A stretch of DNA of 64,000 nt, taken from contig NZ_VYQF01000008.1 in assembly GCF_008710285.1 (NCBI RefSeq), positions 108,667-172,666 on the forward strand, given 5' to 3'. Below the pieces are notes generated by a model. The model saw only the letters and a program-made list of their open reading frames with translations. It had not been told where the DNA came from and made no database searches. Source of the stretch: Ginsengibacter hankyongi. GTDB taxonomy: Bacteria; Bacteroidota; Bacteroidia; Chitinophagales; Chitinophagaceae. A program made the position numbers and the translations under genes. This document shows positions 14,217 to 64,000 of this stretch, piece after piece. Position 1 is the first letter of the stretch, and every line of letters begins with the position of its first letter.

Positions 14217-16334
14217 ATGAGAATAAGCACTTTTCTTGTATTTGTTTTTTTAACTTCTGCTTCTGTTGTAACGGCGCAGCAGGATTCCGTGAACAATGTC
14301 ACCCAGCTCGCCAATCTTTCCCTCGAAGAGTTAATGAATATTAAAGTGGTCACCGCTTCCGGCTATTTGCAAACAACTTCTGAAGCGCCTTCAACCATTA
14401 CGGTAATTACTGCAAAGCAAATTGCCGAAAGAGGATACGAGCAGTTGGAAGATGCGCTTCGCGATATTCCCGGAATTGACATGATTCACATTAACGGTTA
14501 TGCCCCCACACTCATTTACTTCAGGGGAATGTATGGAGCGGAAAACCTCCGGGCATTGTTAATGATCGACGGTGTGGTTGAAAACAACATCCTTGGAACC
14601 AATGATATGGCCGGTCCCGCTTATAGCCTTCACAATGTGGATCATATTGAGATTATCTGGGGGCCCGCATCTGCATTGTATGGGGCCAATGCTTTGGGTG
14701 GCGTTATTAACGTCATTACCAAAAAGGGAGCCGACATCAATGGATTGCATGCGGAACAGGGATTTGGCAGCTTTAATACTACCTTCGAAAAGGTAAGCCT
14801 TGGGGTAAGGAAGTCAAATTTAGAGTTCGCTGTCGCCGGCACATTATATAGCAGCGATGGCCCGAAATTCAGCAACAGGGACTCTCAATATTCAAATTCG
14901 TATGTTGACAAGGCAAATTCATTTAATGGAACGGTAAGTTATTATGCAAAAAAATCAAAAACTACCATGGGGTTTAGGTCTTACAACACACCTATGGGTT
15001 ATGGAACGTTTTTTAACAGCGCCACGGTTATATTTGGCCTTCCGGCACCGGGCTACGATAACAACGGCAGAGTAGGGTTCGTCTCAAGAAACATCAGGGG
15101 AGAAAAAGGAGGACTGGCCAACTATTATTTACGGACCTACTATTTAGAAAATGAATGGAAGCCTAATAACAAATTCAGCTTGCTTAGCCGGGTTGTTTAT
15201 CGAGAAACGGGTACGGCTGATGACTCTTATGTGTATATTACCTTTGATGGAAGAAAGCTTATCCGTGGTATTTTTTCAAGTTATTCCAATCGCATTCAGG
15301 GAGAGTTAAAGGCAAATTACGCTCCTGCTCAAAATCAAAATTTTTCTGCCGGTATTCAGTATTATAGCGACAATGTGGAACGGGGGCAGAGAAAATCAAC
15401 ATTAAACCTTACCACGCCCTATCTGCTTGATGGCAGAGATACGTTATATAACCTGAATGCCACTTTTTTGCCGAGGGTATATGACATACGAAATAATTTC
15501 GGCACTTATCTGCAATATGTATTAAATACCCGCCTGTTTGGTAAAACCAACTTCACGCTGGGCACGCGTTATGATTATAACAGCTATTTTGGAAGTGCAT
15601 TTAATCCGAGAGCGGTTATTGTAAACCAGCCCAATGAGAAGCTGACCTTTAAATTACAGTTTGGTACTGCCTTCCGGGCGCCCACTGAAAACGAAATACA
15701 GCAGGCACCGCCTACGCTCGACCTTAAAACGGAAAAGATAAAAACCTTCGAGGTAAATGCTATTTACTCGCCATCAAAAGCGGTAAGAGTTCAGTTAAAC
15801 TTTTTCCGTAATGTACTTAGCGATGTAATTGTCATCGGCAATCTTTCCGGGCTGAACCCAAACAAGAATCCGGGTGCGGAAAAAATTAACGGAATAGAAT
15901 TCACTTCTGACATGATGATTACAAAAAATATTTCGGCCTTTACCAATTTTACTTACCAGGATGCCACCGGCCGGAATTTTGTAACCCATTTTTCGGGTGA
16001 ATTACCGGGAGTTGCGAAATTTAAAGGAAATGCGGGCCTGGCCATCCATATACAACCACTGCTCACGATAAGCCTGGTAGAAAACTGGGTAGGCCAGAGG
16101 CGGGTACCCACGACGGATCCGTATGGCCCCGTTCCGGGTCATTTTCTTACCAACTGTGTTATCAGCACGGGAAAGTTATTTAATAAAGGCATAAGTGCCA
16201 GTTTAAATGTTCGTAATATTTTTAATGCCAAATGGCTGGATCCAGGCTTCCGCACCGCTGATGGGCTTTTATTTTCAACGGTAATGGAACAGCCAGGTGT
16301 TAATGGTTTATTTAAGATCGGGATAGATTTATAA
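14217..16334 (+). CDS. TonB-dependent receptor of the YfiR/kinase unit
   Basis: A 705-residue outer-membrane receptor: signal peptide 1-20 (SASVVTAQ), a TonB-box-like/linker region LANLSLEELMNIKVVTASG, plug domain from about 55 to 170 (APSTITVITAKQIAERG, YFRGMYG, LMIDGVVENN, WGPASALYGANALGGVINVI), then a 22-strand barrel ending in the aromatic-rich terminal strand. It lacks the carboxypeptidase-like domain of SusC proteins and resembles small-ligand (siderophore/cobalamin/colicin) receptors. The gene is followed after 38 bases by a YfiR-like gene and then a sensor kinase, so the barrel may take part in sensing rather than, or as well as, uptake. Confidence 0.88.
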   Translation: MRISTFLVFVFLTSASVVTAQQDSVNNVTQLANLSLEELMNIKVVTASGYLQTTSEAPSTITVITAKQIAERGYEQLEDALRDIPGIDMIHINGYAPTLIYFRGMYGAENLRALLMIDGVVENNILGTNDMAGPAYSLHNVDHIEIIWGPASALYGANALGGVINVITKKGADINGLHAEQGFGSFNTTFEKVSLGVRKSNLEFAVAGTLYSSDGPKFSNRDSQYSNSYVDKANSFNGTVSYYAKKSKTTMGFRSYNTPMGYGTFFNSATVIFGLPAPGYDNNGRVGFVSRNIRGEKGGLANYYLRTYYLENEWKPNNKFSLLSRVVYRETGTADDSYVYITFDGRKLIRGIFSSYSNRIQGELKANYAPAQNQNFSAGIQYYSDNVERGQRKSTLNLTTPYLLDGRDTLYNLNATFLPRVYDIRNNFGTYLQYVLNTRLFGKTNFTLGTRYDYNSYFGSAFNPRAVIVNQPNEKLTFKLQFGTAFRAPTENEIQQAPPTLDLKTEKIKTFEVNAIYSPSKAVRVQLNFFRNVLSDVIVIGNLSGLNPNKNPGAEKINGIEFTSDMMITKNISAFTNFTYQDATGRNFVTHFSGELPGVAKFKGNAGLAIHIQPLLTISLVENWVGQRRVPTTDPYGPVPGHFLTNCVISTGKLFNKGISASLNVRNIFNAKWLDPGFRTADGLLFSTVMEQPGVNGLFKIGIDL

Positions 16335-58158: not shown

Positions 58159-58986
58159 ATGCTTGGCTTTATAGTACCTATTAAACCAAAACAATATTCC
58201 AAAAACTGGAACCTGGACAATGCGATCCTTGAAAGGACGGTGAAGTCGATATGCAACCAGAACTCACAGGATTTTAAATTAATTATTGTTTATACGGATA
58301 AGCCTGAGATTAGTTTTTCACATCAGAACCTTAATTATGTACATTTTCCTTATGCGGATGTACCGGTTAATGATATTGAGGACTGGGAAGACCGGAAACA
58401 ATGGTACACCCCGGTATTCGCGGAAAGGATGATGGACAAATCCCGGAAGATCATCCTGGGATGTAAGACGGCGAAATCTCTTGGTTGTACCTATTTGATG
58501 GGGGTAGATAGTGATGACCTGGTATCTTGTAAATTATGCTCCTTTATAAAAGACTACCCGGAAAAAAACTGTGCCGGGTGGAGAATAGCCCGTGGTTATG
58601 TTTATGAAGAAGATGCGATGGTTGCCGTTAAAAATAAAAGAATCTGGGAAATGAACGGGAGTGTCCACATCATCAGGGCCGACCTGGTTAATATTCCTGA
58701 TTTTGACTCCAATTTCAGGTTGTTTGATTACAGCTTATTCCAGAGCCATGTTTATACCTATCAGCGGTTAATAGACTTTCATCAAGAGAAATTAGCGGCG
58801 GTTCCATTCTATGGAGTTGTATACCTTATTCATAAAAATAATTACTCAAAAGTGAGGGAAATAATCTCGTCCAACACTTTTAAACTGTTTATAAAAAAAA
58901 TACTCCGGGGGAAATTAGTAACCAGGAAATTAAGGGATGAGTTTGGTTTATACCCTTTAAAAAATAGTGTTAACCGCGGAAATTGA
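58159..58986 (+). CDS. GT-A glycosyltransferase, rhamnosyltransferase-like
   Basis: The 275-residue protein has MLGFIVPIKPKQYSKNWNLD, FKLIIVYTDKPEISFSHQNL, then CTYLMGVDSDDLVSCKLCSF with the DSDD metal site. The later FDYSLFQSHVYTYQRL replaces the usual GT2 ED motif. Such proteins are commonly named putative rhamnosyltransferases; no rhamnose genes are in view. The next gene overlaps the stop by 4 bases (TTGA). Confidence 0.75.
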   Translation: MLGFIVPIKPKQYSKNWNLDNAILERTVKSICNQNSQDFKLIIVYTDKPEISFSHQNLNYVHFPYADVPVNDIEDWEDRKQWYTPVFAERMMDKSRKIILGCKTAKSLGCTYLMGVDSDDLVSCKLCSFIKDYPEKNCAGWRIARGYVYEEDAMVAVKNKRIWEMNGSVHIIRADLVNIPDFDSNFRLFDYSLFQSHVYTYQRLIDFHQEKLAAVPFYGVVYLIHKNNYSKVREIISSNTFKLFIKKILRGKLVTRKLRDEFGLYPLKNSVNRGN

Positions 58987-60149
58987 AACCCAAAATATCT
59001 TACTACTTAAGTCATCCGATCCAATATTTTTCTCCACTGCTTAGAGAGATGAGCGAGGAATTTGATCTGCACGTTTATTATTTTTCTGACGCAAGCATCA
59101 GGGGAAATGTAGATGTTGGATTTGGACAGCCGGTAAAATGGGATATCCCTTTGTTGGAAGGTTATTCGGCTACCTTTCTTAAAAATATCTCGGGAAGAAA
59201 ATCACTATCAAACAGGATTTGGGATGTTGTCAATCCTTCCGTGGTAACCTCTTTATTTAAAAGGGACGCGTCCATTGTTATAGTTAATGGCTGGAGTTAT
59301 TTTTCTAATTTACTCACTATTATAGCGGCGAAGATGCTGGGTAAGAAAGTCTGGCTGAGAGCCGAGAATCCCCTGCACCAGGAATTAAAAAAAAGTAGGA
59401 ACGCCCTCCGGATTAAAGCAGTAATATTAAAGTACCTGCTTTTCCCTTTTATCGATAAGTTCTTATACATCGGTAAAGAGAGCAAACAATTTTTTGAATA
59501 TTACGGAGTAAAACCCTCCCGGTTAGTGTACACGCCTTATGCGGTAGACAATGAATTGTTTCAAAAAGAATCCGCTTGTTTAAAAAATAAGGAATTGGTG
59601 AAACACCAGCTTGGGCTGCCACGGGAAAAGGATATCATATTGTTTACCGGGAAATATATTGAAAAGAAAAGGCCGCTTGATTTAATAAAAGCATTTCATT
59701 TGCTGAATGCATCGTCTGCGGTTTTAGTGATGGCAGGTGAAGGAGAATTGCGCAAAGAAATGGAAGTATACATTCATGAAAATGATATTAAGAACGTTAT
59801 CCTGGCTGGTTTTATTAACCAATCTGAAATTGCAAGGTATTATGCGGCGGCAGACGTATTTGTGATGTGTTCAGGAATGGGGGAGACGTGGGGCCTCTCT
59901 GTAAATGAGGCGATGAACTTTGCTTTACCGGTTATAGTATCTAAAACCTGCGGCTGTGCTGAAGACCTGGTTCACGACAATAGTAATGGATTTTTGTACG
60001 AGGAACGGGATATAAAGGCGTTAAGTGACGGGATAAGAACGCTGCTGGAAAATGAAGAGTTACGGGGCAAATTCGGAAATGCTTCGTTGAAGATCATCAA
60101 TGATTTTTCAATACAGCATATTGTTCAAAATATGAAAGCGGCTATTTGA
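58983..60149 (+). CDS. glycosyltransferase family 4
   Basis: The 388-residue GT-B enzyme starts TTG-AAA: KPKISYYLSHPIQYFSPLLR (a typical PIQYFSP opening), LRAENPLHQELKKSRNALRI, FTGKYIEKKRPLDLIKAFHL and CSGMGETWGLSVNEAMNFAL with the E-x7-E donor motif. It is the last gene of the compact run; a 1.4 kb repeat array follows with no gene. Confidence 0.9.
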   Translation: MKPKISYYLSHPIQYFSPLLREMSEEFDLHVYYFSDASIRGNVDVGFGQPVKWDIPLLEGYSATFLKNISGRKSLSNRIWDVVNPSVVTSLFKRDASIVIVNGWSYFSNLLTIIAAKMLGKKVWLRAENPLHQELKKSRNALRIKAVILKYLLFPFIDKFLYIGKESKQFFEYYGVKPSRLVYTPYAVDNELFQKESACLKNKELVKHQLGLPREKDIILFTGKYIEKKRPLDLIKAFHLLNASSAVLVMAGEGELRKEMEVYIHENDIKNVILAGFINQSEIARYYAAADVFVMCSGMGETWGLSVNEAMNFALPVIVSKTCGCAEDLVHDNSNGFLYEERDIKALSDGIRTLLENEELRGKFGNASLKIINDFSIQHIVQNMKAAI

Positions 60150-61560
60150 TGTATTGCGGGGAGCCAAATGGAGAAGATTGCCGCGGCGCACCAGGTCTTT
60201 TCAAATTGCAACTTTTGTTATGCGCCTCGCAATGACGTAAACAACGGGCTTCAAGTCCTTAAATGAGCAGATTACCATTGGTAGCGTCATTTGCTGTAGA
60301 AGCCCCACGGATGCCAATCGCTGCTACGTCATTGCTGTAGAAGCCCCATGGATGCCAATCGTTTAGAGAATTTTAATGGCGACGCGGCAATCTCCTAATT
60401 AGAACAAGGATTGTCTTCTTAAGGAGCAGATTGCCATTTGCTACGTCATTGCGAGGAGCTAAGTGGATGTCAAACGTTTAGAGAATTTTAATGGCGACGC
60501 GGCAATCTCCTAATTAGAACAAGGATTGTCTTCTTAAGGAGCAGATTGCCATTTGCTACGTCATTGCGAGGAGCTAAGTGGATGTCAAACGTTTAGAGAA
60601 TTTTAATGGCGACGCGGCAATCTCCTAATTAGAACAAGGATTGTCTTCTTAAGGAGCAGATTGCCATTTGCTACGTCATTGCGAGGAGCTAAGTGGATGT
60701 CAATCGTTTAGAGAATTTTAATAGCGACGCGGCAATCTCCTAATTAGAACAGGGATTGTCATCTTAAGGAGAAGATTGCCATTTGCTACGTCATTGCGAG
60801 GAGCTAAGTGGATGTCAATCGTTTAGAGAATTTTAATAGCGACGCGGCAATCTCCTAATTAGAACAGGGTTTGCCTTCTTAAGGAGCAGATTGCCGCGGC
60901 GCACCCAATCTTTTCAAAATGCAACTTTTGTTATGCGCCTCGCAATGACGTAAACAACGGGCTTCAAGTCCTTAAATGAGCAGATTACCATTGGTAGCGT
61001 CATTGCTGTAGAAGCCCGTGGATACCAATCGCTATGACGTCATTGCGAGGAGCTAAGTGGATACCAATCGTTTAGAGAATTTTAATAGCGACGCGGCAAT
61101 CTCCCGGTTACCGTCATTGCGAGGAGCCAAGTGGATGCTAATCAGTTAGGAAATGTTAATGGCAACGCGGCAATCTTTCAATTACCACAGTCTCCGCCCA
61201 ACTAACAGATTGCCACGGCGCACCCAATCTTTTCAAAATGCAACTTTTGTTATGCGCTTCGCAATGACGTAAACAAGGGGCTTCAAGTCCTTAAATGAGC
61301 AGATTACCATTGGTAGCGTCATTGCTGTAGAAGCCAGGTGGATACCAAGCGCTGTGACGTCATTGCGAGGAGCTAAGTGGATGTCAAACGTTTAGAGAAT
61401 TTTAATAGCGACGCGGCAAGCTCCTAATTAGAACAGGGTTTGCCTTCTTAAGGAGCAGCTTACCGCGGCGTACCAGATCTTTTCAAAATGCAACTTTTGT
61501 TATGCGCCTCGCAATGACGTAAATAACGGGCTTGCCGGTTCTGAAATTTTAAACTATTAA
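60150..61560. repeat. dispersed/tandem repeat array, left segment
   Basis: This 1.4 kb stretch has no gene and is almost entirely repeats. Two unit types are seen. Type B units open with CGTCATTGCGAGG and close with GCGACGCGGCAATCT; type A units open with AGATTGCCGCGGCGC and close with CGCCTCGCAATGACG. The two ends are inverted copies of each other. Four exact-length 115-bp type-B units are in tandem at 60361-60820, with a partial fifth after. Type A cores occur near 60208, 60920, 61240 and 61493. The link TGCTGTAGAAGCC recurs between units. Confidence 0.92.
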
Positions 61561-61594
61561 TTAGCGCCTGTTTTTCCTTTACGTTCAGAAAGTT

Positions 61595-62620
61595 TTGGTT
61601 AAAACTATTTTATATATCGGGAGTTTAAATGAATCTGGTAATTCATTTGGCAGGTATAAGACATTGAAAGCAATGGGAAACGAGGTGACGGGCATAGATA
61701 CAGACGCCTATGTTTACGGTGGTTTATTTGATAAGTTTCACCACCACCTGAATGTGGGGCCGGGGATCCTTGCCTTAAATAAGAAGGTATTGCAAACCAT
61801 TGAAGAGGTTACTCCGGAAATTATATGGGTGGATAATAAACCATTCCTTCAATCCCGGGCATTAAAAAAGATAAGGAGCAAATGGCCCGGAATAAAAATA
61901 ATTAACCTGGTAACCGATGACCCGACCGGCAAATACAAAAATGCCTGGCGGCTGTGTTTACGCACTGCAAAATATTACGACTTCCATTTTGTTCAACGTG
62001 CAGTCAATATTCCTGAATTGAAAAAATACGGCGCCAAACGGGTGGAAATATGTTACCGCTCTTATGATCCTTCCCTACATAGGGTCGTTTCATTAAATGC
62101 AGCAGATCTGAAAAAATACAAAACGCCGGTTGGCTTTATAGGAACACACGAAAGCTATCGGGAGGAATATATTGTTCATCTTATAAAAAATAAAATTCCC
62201 GTAAGCATCACAGGCAATGACTGGCAACATGCAAAGCAGTGGGATGTTATAAAACCCCATTACAAGGGTCCGTCAGTGTATGGCAATGCCTATATTAAAA
62301 CGATTAATGGTTTTGATATCGCGTTACATTTTTTAAGGCATACCAACAGGGATGAGCAGGATAGCAGGACGTTCGAGATACCTGCCTGCGGTACTTTTAT
62401 GCTTGCGGAAAAAAGCGGGGTGCATTTGTCACTTTTTGAAGACGGTAAAGAAGCGGTTTTTTTCGAAACCAAAGAACAGTTGTTAGAAAAAATAAAATAT
62501 TATTTAGAACACCCGGACGAAAGAAAGACTATTGCAAAAGCAGGGCATGAAAGGTGCACGTCAAGTGGCTACTCTCATGCTGCCAGGTTACAGGAAGTAA
62601 TTGGTAAAATATTTACTTGA
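61595..62620 (+). CDS. CgeB-like glycosyltransferase inside the repeat array
   Basis: The 341-residue protein starts TTG-GTT (MVKTILYIGSLNESGNSFGR) and has ELKKYGAKRVEICYRSYDPS with the YDP of CgeB proteins, then VGFIGTHESYREEYIVHLIK, and SRTFEIPACGTFMLAEKSGV followed by LSLFEDGKEAVFFETKEQLL, the CgeB C-terminal signature. It is framed on both sides by repeat arrays and is more than 1.4 kb from the previous GT gene, so it probably has its own promoter. Role in glycan assembly inferred from family and position. Confidence 0.88.
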   Translation: MVKTILYIGSLNESGNSFGRYKTLKAMGNEVTGIDTDAYVYGGLFDKFHHHLNVGPGILALNKKVLQTIEEVTPEIIWVDNKPFLQSRALKKIRSKWPGIKIINLVTDDPTGKYKNAWRLCLRTAKYYDFHFVQRAVNIPELKKYGAKRVEICYRSYDPSLHRVVSLNAADLKKYKTPVGFIGTHESYREEYIVHLIKNKIPVSITGNDWQHAKQWDVIKPHYKGPSVYGNAYIKTINGFDIALHFLRHTNRDEQDSRTFEIPACGTFMLAEKSGVHLSLFEDGKEAVFFETKEQLLEKIKYYLEHPDERKTIAKAGHERCTSSGYSHAARLQEVIGKIFT

Positions 62621-62639
62621 GGCCTGGTTGTTGGGGGCA

Positions 62640-64000
62640 TGGAGCACCATAAACGTCATTGCCAGGAGGTAAGTCGATGCCAATCATGTAGAAATTTTAA
62701 TAGCGACGCGGCAATCTCATAATTAGAACAGGGATTGTCTTCTTAATGAGCAGATTGCCGCGGCGCACCAGGTCTTTTCAAATTGCAACTTTTGTTATGC
62801 GCCTCGCAATGACGTAAACAACGGGCTTCAAGTCCTTAAATGGGCAGATTGCCGCGGCGCACCAGATCTTTTCAAATTGCAACTTTTGTTATGCGCCTCG
62901 CAATGACGTAAACAAAGGGCTTCAAGTTCTTAAACGAGCAGATTGCCGCGGCGCACCAGATCTTTTCAAATAGCAACTTTTGTTATGCGCCTCGCAATGA
63001 CGTAAGCGACGGGCTTCAAGTTCTTAAATGAGCAGATTACCTATTTGCAACGTCATTGCTGTAGAAGCCCCGTGGATACCAATCGCTATGACGTCATTGC
63101 GAGGAGCTAAGTGGATGCCAATCGTGTAGGGAATTTTAATAGCGACGCGGCAATCTCATAACAGGGATTGTCTTCTTAAGGAGCAGATTGCCATTTGCTA
63201 CGTCATTGCGAGGAGCTAAAGAGATGTCAAACGTGTAGGGAATTTTAATAGCGACGCGGCAATCTCATAATTAGAACAGGGATTGTCTTCTTAAGGAGCA
63301 GATTGCCGCGGCGCACCAGATCTTTTCAAATTGCAACTTTTGTTATGCGCCTCGCAATGACGTAAACAAGGGGCTTCAGGTCCTTAAATGAGCAGATTAC
63401 CGCGGCGCACCAGATCTTTTCAAATTGCAACTTTTGCTATGCGCCTCGCAATGACGTAAACAAGGGGCTTCAAGTCCTTAAATTAGCAGATTGCCGCGGC
63501 GCATCAGATCTTTTCAAATTGCAACTTTTGTTATGCGCCTCGCAATGACGTAAACAAGGGGCTTCAACTCCTTAAACGAGCAGATTACCTATTTGCAACG
63601 TCATTGCTGTAGAAGCCCCGTGGATACCAATCGCTATGACGTCATTGCGAGGAGGTAAGTCGATGCCAATCATGTAGAAATTTTAATAGCGACGCTGCAA
63701 TGTCCTAATTAGAACAGGGATTGTCTTCTTAGGGAGCAGATTGCCGCGGCGCACCAGGTCTTTTCAAATTGCAACTTTTGTTATGCGCCTCGCAATGACG
63801 TAAACAACGGGCTTCAAGTCCTTAAATGGGCAGATTGCCGCGGCGCACCAGATCTTTTCAAATTGCAACTTTTGTTATGCGCCTCGCAATGACGTAAACA
63901 AGGGGCTTCAAGTCCTTAAATGAGCAGATTGCCGCGGCGCACCAGATCTTTTCAAATTGCAACTTTTGTTATGCGCCTCGCAATGACGTAAACAAGGGGC
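62640..64000. repeat. dispersed/tandem repeat array, right segment (continues past the window)
   Basis: The same two unit types as in the left segment fill the window end, but type A dominates: type A cores occur near 62786, 62881, 62972, 63332, 63426, 63520, 63773, 63866 and 63960. Where adjacent they repeat every 91-95 bases (e.g. 63831 to 63925). Type B copies are near 62652, 63091, 63200 and 63641. No gene or open frame of note is seen. The array is cut by the window end. Confidence 0.92.

Follow-up and report, generated by a model that had tools for sequence, protein, structure and literature searches.

How can repeats keep two nearly identical ends while holding unrelated sequence between them? 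This question is raised by the last 3.8 kb of a 64,000-nucleotide stretch of the Ginsengibacter hankyongi genome (the window; contig NZ_VYQF01000008.1, here C32), where a glycosyltransferase gene in a run of plus-strand genes is accompanied by an array of two types of repeat unit, A and B. Judged by their sequence, these units are repetitive extragenic palindromic (REP) elements tagged with CGTC. The answer proposed here, with a probability of roughly 0.7, is that the array is likely a locally expanded cluster of CGTC REPs, and that a small GIY-YIG nuclease, whose gene belongs to the same cluster on a probably adjoining contig, likely recognises and cuts the shared ends.

Structure of the array and the gene inside it

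A search of both strands of the window with GTCATTGCGAGG, allowing at most one mismatch, returned 11 matches on the plus strand and 13 on the minus strand, all between positions 60225 and 63987. They correspond to the 11 B and 13 A copies counted in a first-pass annotation made from the sequence alone, and the unit lengths also agree with it: B units span 65 nt (13 + 37 + 15) on the plus strand and A units 63 nt (15 + 33 + 15) on the minus strand. Read in one sense, both take the form CGTCATTGCGAGG...GCG(A/C)CGCGGCAATCT, and their middles are unrelated, as that annotation had described. Its picture of a single array did not hold, the copies being arranged in two blocks around a glycosyltransferase gene (Table 1). 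Consecutive A copies are spaced by 94 bp and consecutive B copies mostly by 115 bp, periods that suggest tandem duplication rather than repeated insertion. Additionally, a third, partial unit type (GTCATTGCTGTAGAAGCC...) occurs five times, and its copy at 60327 is fused to the 3' half of a B unit.

The exchange of interiors between A and B is real, though by no means confined to this array. A genome-wide search with the common ends, which the annotation had suggested, revealed further places. Other interiors exist in this genome too, with 20 distinct ones among 31 complete units in four scanned stretches. Across the 80 GIY-YIG loci described below, 233 complete units hold 145 distinct interiors, with a median length of 15 nt and a 10–90% range of 8–45. 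Variable interiors between conserved ends are the rule of this family. In another genome of the same genus (G109), a GIY-YIG gene with a stop lies between the short forms CGTCATTGCGAGGAGGAACGACGAAGCAATCT and CGTCATTGCGAGGAGCAAAGCGACGAAGCAATCT; the ends of B nearly equal those of the short form, with about 30 nt more loop, and the tip of A differs. The expectation that neighbouring A and B units pair into long hairpins is also borne out by prediction for the one B-A pair folded. As a single DNA strand, positions 60789-60950 give -36 kcal/mol (z -5.7), a value equalled by none of 200 shuffles, and A alone is predicted to fold slightly better than its shuffles (z -1.2). A, B and two units on contig C1 all start with CGTC, which stays unpaired in the predicted folds, and the lower stem ATTGC/GCAAT has complementary AT at its first positions.

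Window position 64000 is the end of contig C32, and the first 61 bases of contig C5 are identical to the last 61 of the window. C5 carries further A and B units up to about position 1360, where the next glycosyltransferase-like gene follows. In a sister species of the genus (G114), a single contig carries these genes in identical order, and this collinearity supports the join; C5 therefore likely adjoins C32, and the array is probably continuous across the break. Because it runs on into C5, position 64000 is only a contig end and not the end of a glycan locus, as had been proposed, and the number of units counted at the break is a minimum.

The part of the cluster on C5 encloses a gene whose 101-residue product (P0001) matches the GIY-YIG family PF01541 of Pfam at 8.9e-18. 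In a family search of the genome, it was the sole small stand-alone GIY-YIG open reading frame (ORF), the two other matches lying in ORFs of 613 and 461 aa. The Y, R and E positions of GIY-YIG domains have a catalytic role, and all three columns are invariant across 16 aligned sequences. The structure predicted for one relative (L073) from 20 sequences has a pLDDT (predicted local distance difference test) of 94.7; its best solved fold is UPF0213 (E 7.5e-4), followed by Slx1 and the UvrC N-domain with E above 0.01. PADLOC returned no match for the GIY-YIG protein, and NCBIfam only a weak match to a group I intron endonuclease, below cut-off. A Neisseria homolog is 46.7% identical to P0001.

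The copy-number comparison called for by the annotation shows a longer array here than in G114. The two repeat-bearing gaps measure 1445 and ~2690 bp, compared with ~370 and ~680 bp in the sister species. There, roughly one B-like unit and one oppositely oriented A unit occupy the first gap, and the second contains one B-A pair with one extra B-like unit (B units of G114 were read by eye). Decayed partial copies are present in the G114 gaps. Because B-A pairs with recognisable interiors occur in both of them, the A/B pair predates the species split. A gene of the P0001 type is absent from the matching G114 gap, and a different GIY-YIG gene, 41% identical, lies elsewhere on that contig. With about one B-A pair per gap in G114 and no such gene at that place, the array has likely expanded locally.

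In the proposed mechanism, the nuclease would read a conserved foot of the predicted hairpin, made of CGTC, the lower stem ATTGC/GCAAT and then GAG, with CGTC plus ATTGC as the probable recognition sequence. The interior would form the hairpin tip and is probably free to diverge, which may explain why one end-pair carries different interiors. The A units on the minus strand and the B units on the plus strand would represent halves of an old heterodimer with its tags pointing outward, since both occur in the matching gaps of the sister species. Local multiplication is likely to have proceeded by unequal recombination or slippage, perhaps aided by nicks at the hairpins. At these sites the nuclease might move REPs, or it might limit or steer DNA uptake and recombination at the glycan locus. 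Such a mechanism offers a possible reason for unrelated interiors between identical repeat ends, and an array beside a short-form sister locus provides a setting in which to study array growth.

Association of GIY-YIG genes with CGTC repeats

The relation between gene and repeat extends well beyond this locus. Three sets of GIY-YIG loci were considered: 80 from genome contigs (one Azovibrio record, the rest Bacteroidota), 30 picked by P0001 homology alone, and 17 of 33 matches taken from a plasmid collection. In the 80-locus set, GTCATTGCGA lies within 500 bp of the gene in 74 loci and on both sides in 52. Its density reaches 5.6 per kb at 0-250 bp and is 0-0.24 per kb per 250-bp bin past 1250 bp, and the reversed control motif gave 0 matches against 355 for the motif itself. 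Recurring tagged stems accompany the gene in 17 of the 30 loci picked by homology. Among the 17 plasmid loci, short-loop CGTC palindromes adjoin the gene in 10, long shared tagged repeats in 13 and recurring tagged stems in 15. Plasmid loci positive in at least one of these tests come from Shinella, Sinorhizobium, Neorhizobium, Rhizobium, Azospirillum, Neisseria, Photobacterium, Aeromonas, Sphingobium, Novosphingobium, Spirosoma and the cyanobacterium Planktothrix.

Repeats of at least 14 bp common to both 300-bp flanks were present at 59 of 78, 19 of 29 and 13 of 17 loci in the three sets, and a CGTC or GTCA word was contained in 48, 15 and 13 of these, respectively. Control windows 1.2 kb away shared such repeats in 2 of 143 cases (80-locus set). 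Recurring tagged stems were found in 86 of 127 loci, and three of five control tags gave 0, 1 and 2 (the other two are considered below). The stems themselves differ between lineages: CGTCATCCTCGGG occurs in Shinella, Sinorhizobium and Neorhizobium, CGTCATCCCAGGG in Rhizobium, CGTCATTCCCGCG in Neisseria, Photobacterium and Aeromonas, and CGTCATCCCCGCG in Azospirillum. When stem labels were placed on the GIY-YIG tree, with "none" as a label, 45 changes were required, compared with a shuffled mean of 61.1 and no value as low in 200 shuffles, on a tree whose 101 columns resolve few branches and in which near-copies favour clustering; labelled rows only gave 19 stem changes. At the level of whole genomes, a P0001 relative (E<=1e-10) was present in 17 of 23 genomes with at least three exact copies of CGTCATTGCGAG and in 15 of 75 others (Fisher p 3.8e-6), this being one of twelve threshold pairs whose p values range from 0.0035 to 2.9e-6.

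Presence or absence of the whole unit can also be followed at single sites. On the Azospirillum lipoferum plasmid AZO_p3 (L216), a GIY-YIG gene and four CGTC REPs lie between sufB and sufC, and three relatives with 93.7-94.7% identity (L244-L246) have no insert there. One intergenic site of Sphingobium plasmids (L215 compared with L248-L250) comes in three forms, holding REP-GIY-REP, only one CGTC palindrome, or no clear CGTC hairpin. The version with one palindrome appears to have arisen by deletion between short direct repeats in the two REPs. Absence at these sites could reflect loss or a unit never gained. The first-pass annotation had called the units a REP-like or MITE-like (miniature inverted-repeat transposable element) family amplified at a glycan locus. 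The REP character and the amplification stand; on the MITE side, the ends are inverted-repeat-like, and the Azospirillum and Sphingobium empty-site alignments gave no resolved exact junction or duplication.

Two further GIY-YIG loci are recorded here in their own right. A Planktothrix agardhii plasmid (L204) carries the gene with CTGTCATTCTGAGTGAAACGAAGAATCTCT flanks between a type IIL restriction gene and the DISARM gene drmA. At L230 (G101, C6:85464-85751 with flanks), the GIY-YIG frame has an internal TGA and precedes tandem copies of TGTCATTCCGAAGCG..GAGGAATCT at 39-bp intervals, which adds one more stem type that forms arrays in this genus.

Table 1. Positions of the repeat units, the neighbouring genes and the contig junction (window coordinates unless C5 is given)
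Feature	Position	Strand	Remark
REP array block 1, overall extent	60175..61520		
Block 1, A units	tag ends 60237, 60950, 61269, 61519	-	
Block 1, B units	starts 60444, 60559, 60674, 60789, 61038, 61112, 61358	+	
Block 1, partial third type	60327, 60998, 61317		
REP array block 2, overall extent	62654..64000		
Block 2, A units	tag ends 62814, 62908, 63002, 63362, 63456, 63550, 63800, 63894, 63988	-	
Block 2, B units	starts 62654 (1 mismatch), 63092, 63201, 63640 (3' end altered)	+	
Block 2, partial third type	63051, 63599		
Example B(+)-A(-) heterodimer, CGTC tags outward	60789..60950		predicted as one long hairpin, interiors mostly unpaired in centroid
Glycosyltransferase PF13524 between both blocks	61595..62620	+	gene order conserved in sister species G114
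Glycosyltransferase PF00534 directly upstream of block 1	58983..60149	+	72% identical ortholog in G114
61 bases common with C5 start, likely junction	63940..64000	+	
GIY-YIG gene	C5:228-533		~170 bp past window end, if no repeat units collapsed in assembly

In the genome as a whole, the repeats are clustered rather than dispersed. Of the 35 exact copies of the 12-mer GTCATTGCGAGG, 22 belong to this array, 7 stand at the beginning of C5, 5 at 492-498 kb of C1 and 1 at 415 kb of C1; exact CGTCATTGCGAG has 36 copies at three places. The second cluster, in C1:485001-505000 (L036), occupies 7.4-8.1 kb and 12.7-13.4 kb of that stretch and has other interiors, such as GGCGCATTCG... and GGAAATATGCGC..., with REPs flanking a long ORF that by eye resembles a CheB/CheR-sensor kinase fusion. 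The family search of the genome gave no GIY-YIG match at this cluster, and a small ORF at 15330-15701 of the stretch is presumably of the "GxxExxY" type. An Rfam scan of the window returned only a sub-threshold Histone3 stem-loop (62450-62495; 24.3 against 34 bits), which lies inside the glycosyltransferase gene and is probably due to chance.

Weighing the explanations

Several observations pull against a nuclease that reads the shared ends of these repeats. According to the folding predictions, B by itself folds less well than its shuffles (z +1.7), and in the short G109 unit the CGTC tag pairs with an inner GACG instead of staying free. Only one of the three motif-bearing places in the genome has a GIY-YIG gene, and the C32-C5 junction that brings this gene next to the window is based on a 61-base overlap plus synteny. 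The query behind the 80-locus set (A2) was derived from five proteins at repeat-bearing loci, which biases that set, and loci picked by P0001 homology alone show the exact motif in only 11 of 30 cases. Flank repeats are also shared at 11 of 31 Y1 transposase loci (a tag word occurs in 2), which fits genes that carry terminal repeats themselves. The two remaining control tags reached 22 and 27 of the 127 loci; at 14 of the former and 5 of the latter, every hit overlaps those same palindromes, and some of the other hits, such as GACGAAGCAAT, resemble the 3' half of a REP. Given these two counts and their partial overlap with the palindromes, the tag test discriminates strongly, though its specificity is imperfect.

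Other points against the nuclease would suit a gene that is merely a passenger, settling by cutting or homing in gaps rich in REPs that spread by other means, without driving the array. Two genomes with many copies of CGTCATTGCGAG, G064 (48) and G069 (8), have no P0001 match, and 11 of 14 G064 stretches (L182-L195; 26 of the 48 motif sites, chosen mostly for visible pairs) contain a tag-outward pair, the members lying ~110-175 bp apart. No convincing GIY-YIG frame was found in 20 REP stretches, where four loose pattern matches were judged to be chance, one of them after a frame check; a possible remnant in a G069 stretch proved on inspection to be none. REP orientation around the gene also varies (+/- at 20, -/+ at 14, +/+ at 9 and -/- at 9 of 52 loci), and the notion that the tags of flanking REPs always point outward fails across the 80 loci and in some plasmid loci. 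What speaks against a passenger is the clustering of stem types on the tree of the nuclease, together with the close and repeated occurrence of distinct stems next to the gene in remote lineages, patterns that a homing passenger could also show. A passenger gene is considered unlikely, if far from negligible. That the palindromes serve only the host, acting in the glycan operon as transcription terminators or mRNA stabilisers, copied by slippage and functionally unlinked to any nuclease, is improbable: it agrees with copies lying between same-strand genes of the glycan locus, with the strong predicted folding of the B-A pair and with the tandem spacing of 94 and 115 bp, and it does not lead one to expect a stem-matched association with GIY-YIG genes across phyla.

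The first-pass annotation had instead pointed to a REP-associated tyrosine transposase (RAYT, or TnpA-REP). The genome does contain four Y1_Tnp matches, yet this link was rejected, as GTCATTGCGA was found at none of 33 Y1_Tnp loci of ~3.2 kb each (4 from this genome and 29 from the family, a sample from a family with many further matches), and GTCATTGCGAGG with at most one mismatch is absent from three 20-kb stretches holding Y1_Tnp genes of this genome. Moreover, the tag is CGTC and not GTAG, and a survey of CGTC REPs found no RAYT flanked by them (Di Nocera, De Gregorio and Rocco, 2013; PMC3733652). Mobility of the array through a RAYT has a very slight chance of being correct, and the enzyme found in association with the repeats is the GIY-YIG nuclease.

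A nuclease acting at the shared ends remains the preferred reading, and it can be carried one step further. REPtrons reportedly consist of a RAYT gene flanked by palindromes of its own type, and the paired palindromes called REPINs are said to be dispersed without the gene. By analogy, and with other chemistry, CGTC REPs might be mobilised by a neighbouring GIY-YIG single-strand nuclease that reads only the hairpin foot, so that unlike tips could diverge and form heterodimers. The presence or absence of REP-gene-REP at one site in Azospirillum and Sphingobium relatives supports this extension, which is tentative and stands somewhat short of even odds. If true, the mobilising nuclease would be the dedicated enzyme that the CGTC REP superfamily was said in 2013 to lack. 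The many natural enzyme and repeat pairs with different stems make both specificity and mobility directly testable.

Comparison with known repeat and enzyme systems

According to PMC3733652, CGTC REPs form a superfamily apparently without a dedicated transposase, which is present in Bacteroidetes and includes the Rickettsia RPE and Neisseria dRS3 repeats, the latter being the CGTC-1 elements of Neisseriae. Heterodimers of unlike CGTC REPs in opposite orientation are described there as predominant in families 2 and 3. The present units resemble the elements of that text in their CGTC/TGTC end tag, a stem starting with AT and opposite-orientation dimers. Unlike the published families, with stems of 8-9 bp, loops of 4-5 bp (with some exceptions) and tails that are mostly CCA, A and B combine a lower stem of 5 bp with a variable middle of 33-37 nt and a TCT tail, and they form a large tandem cluster. 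Because stem, middle and tail differ, they appear to fall outside the numbered families 1-4. The main text of PMC3733652 names no dedicated enzyme, and "GIY" appears nowhere in it; the association described here points to one small GIY-YIG lineage as the enzyme that this text leaves open for the superfamily.

Literature searches combining GIY-YIG with REP, RAYT, dRS3, CGTC or palindromic repeats found no connection among the titles and abstract openings listed, within a coverage that excludes preprints and many journals, and the sequence word GTCATTGCGAG led to unrelated topics only. Compared with REPtrons and REPINs, which have an HUH tyrosine enzyme and a GTAG tag, the system considered here has a GIY-YIG enzyme and a CGTC tag.

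The closest likeness is to the Ssn proteins, GIY-YIG site-specific single-strand nucleases that Chenal and others reportedly described in Nature Communications in 2025, together with a Neisseria repeat named NTS and many homologs. The novelty of the present association is lowered by that report. As in Ssn/NTS, a small GIY-YIG protein stands beside its own palindromic repeats, and the Neisseria homolog of P0001 is flanked by CGTCATTCCCGCG repeats. Both conserved active-site positions and adjoining multicopy palindromes of matching type can be recognised in the sequence here. What differs is the host, a member of the Bacteroidota, the stem ATTGC, the long variable interiors and the copy number, with 36 copies of CGTCATTGCGAG at three places compared with what are said to be hundreds of NTS. 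The array and its gene are thus most likely a Bacteroidota variant of the Ssn-type nuclease and repeat pair, distinguished by long variable interiors and a locally grown array.

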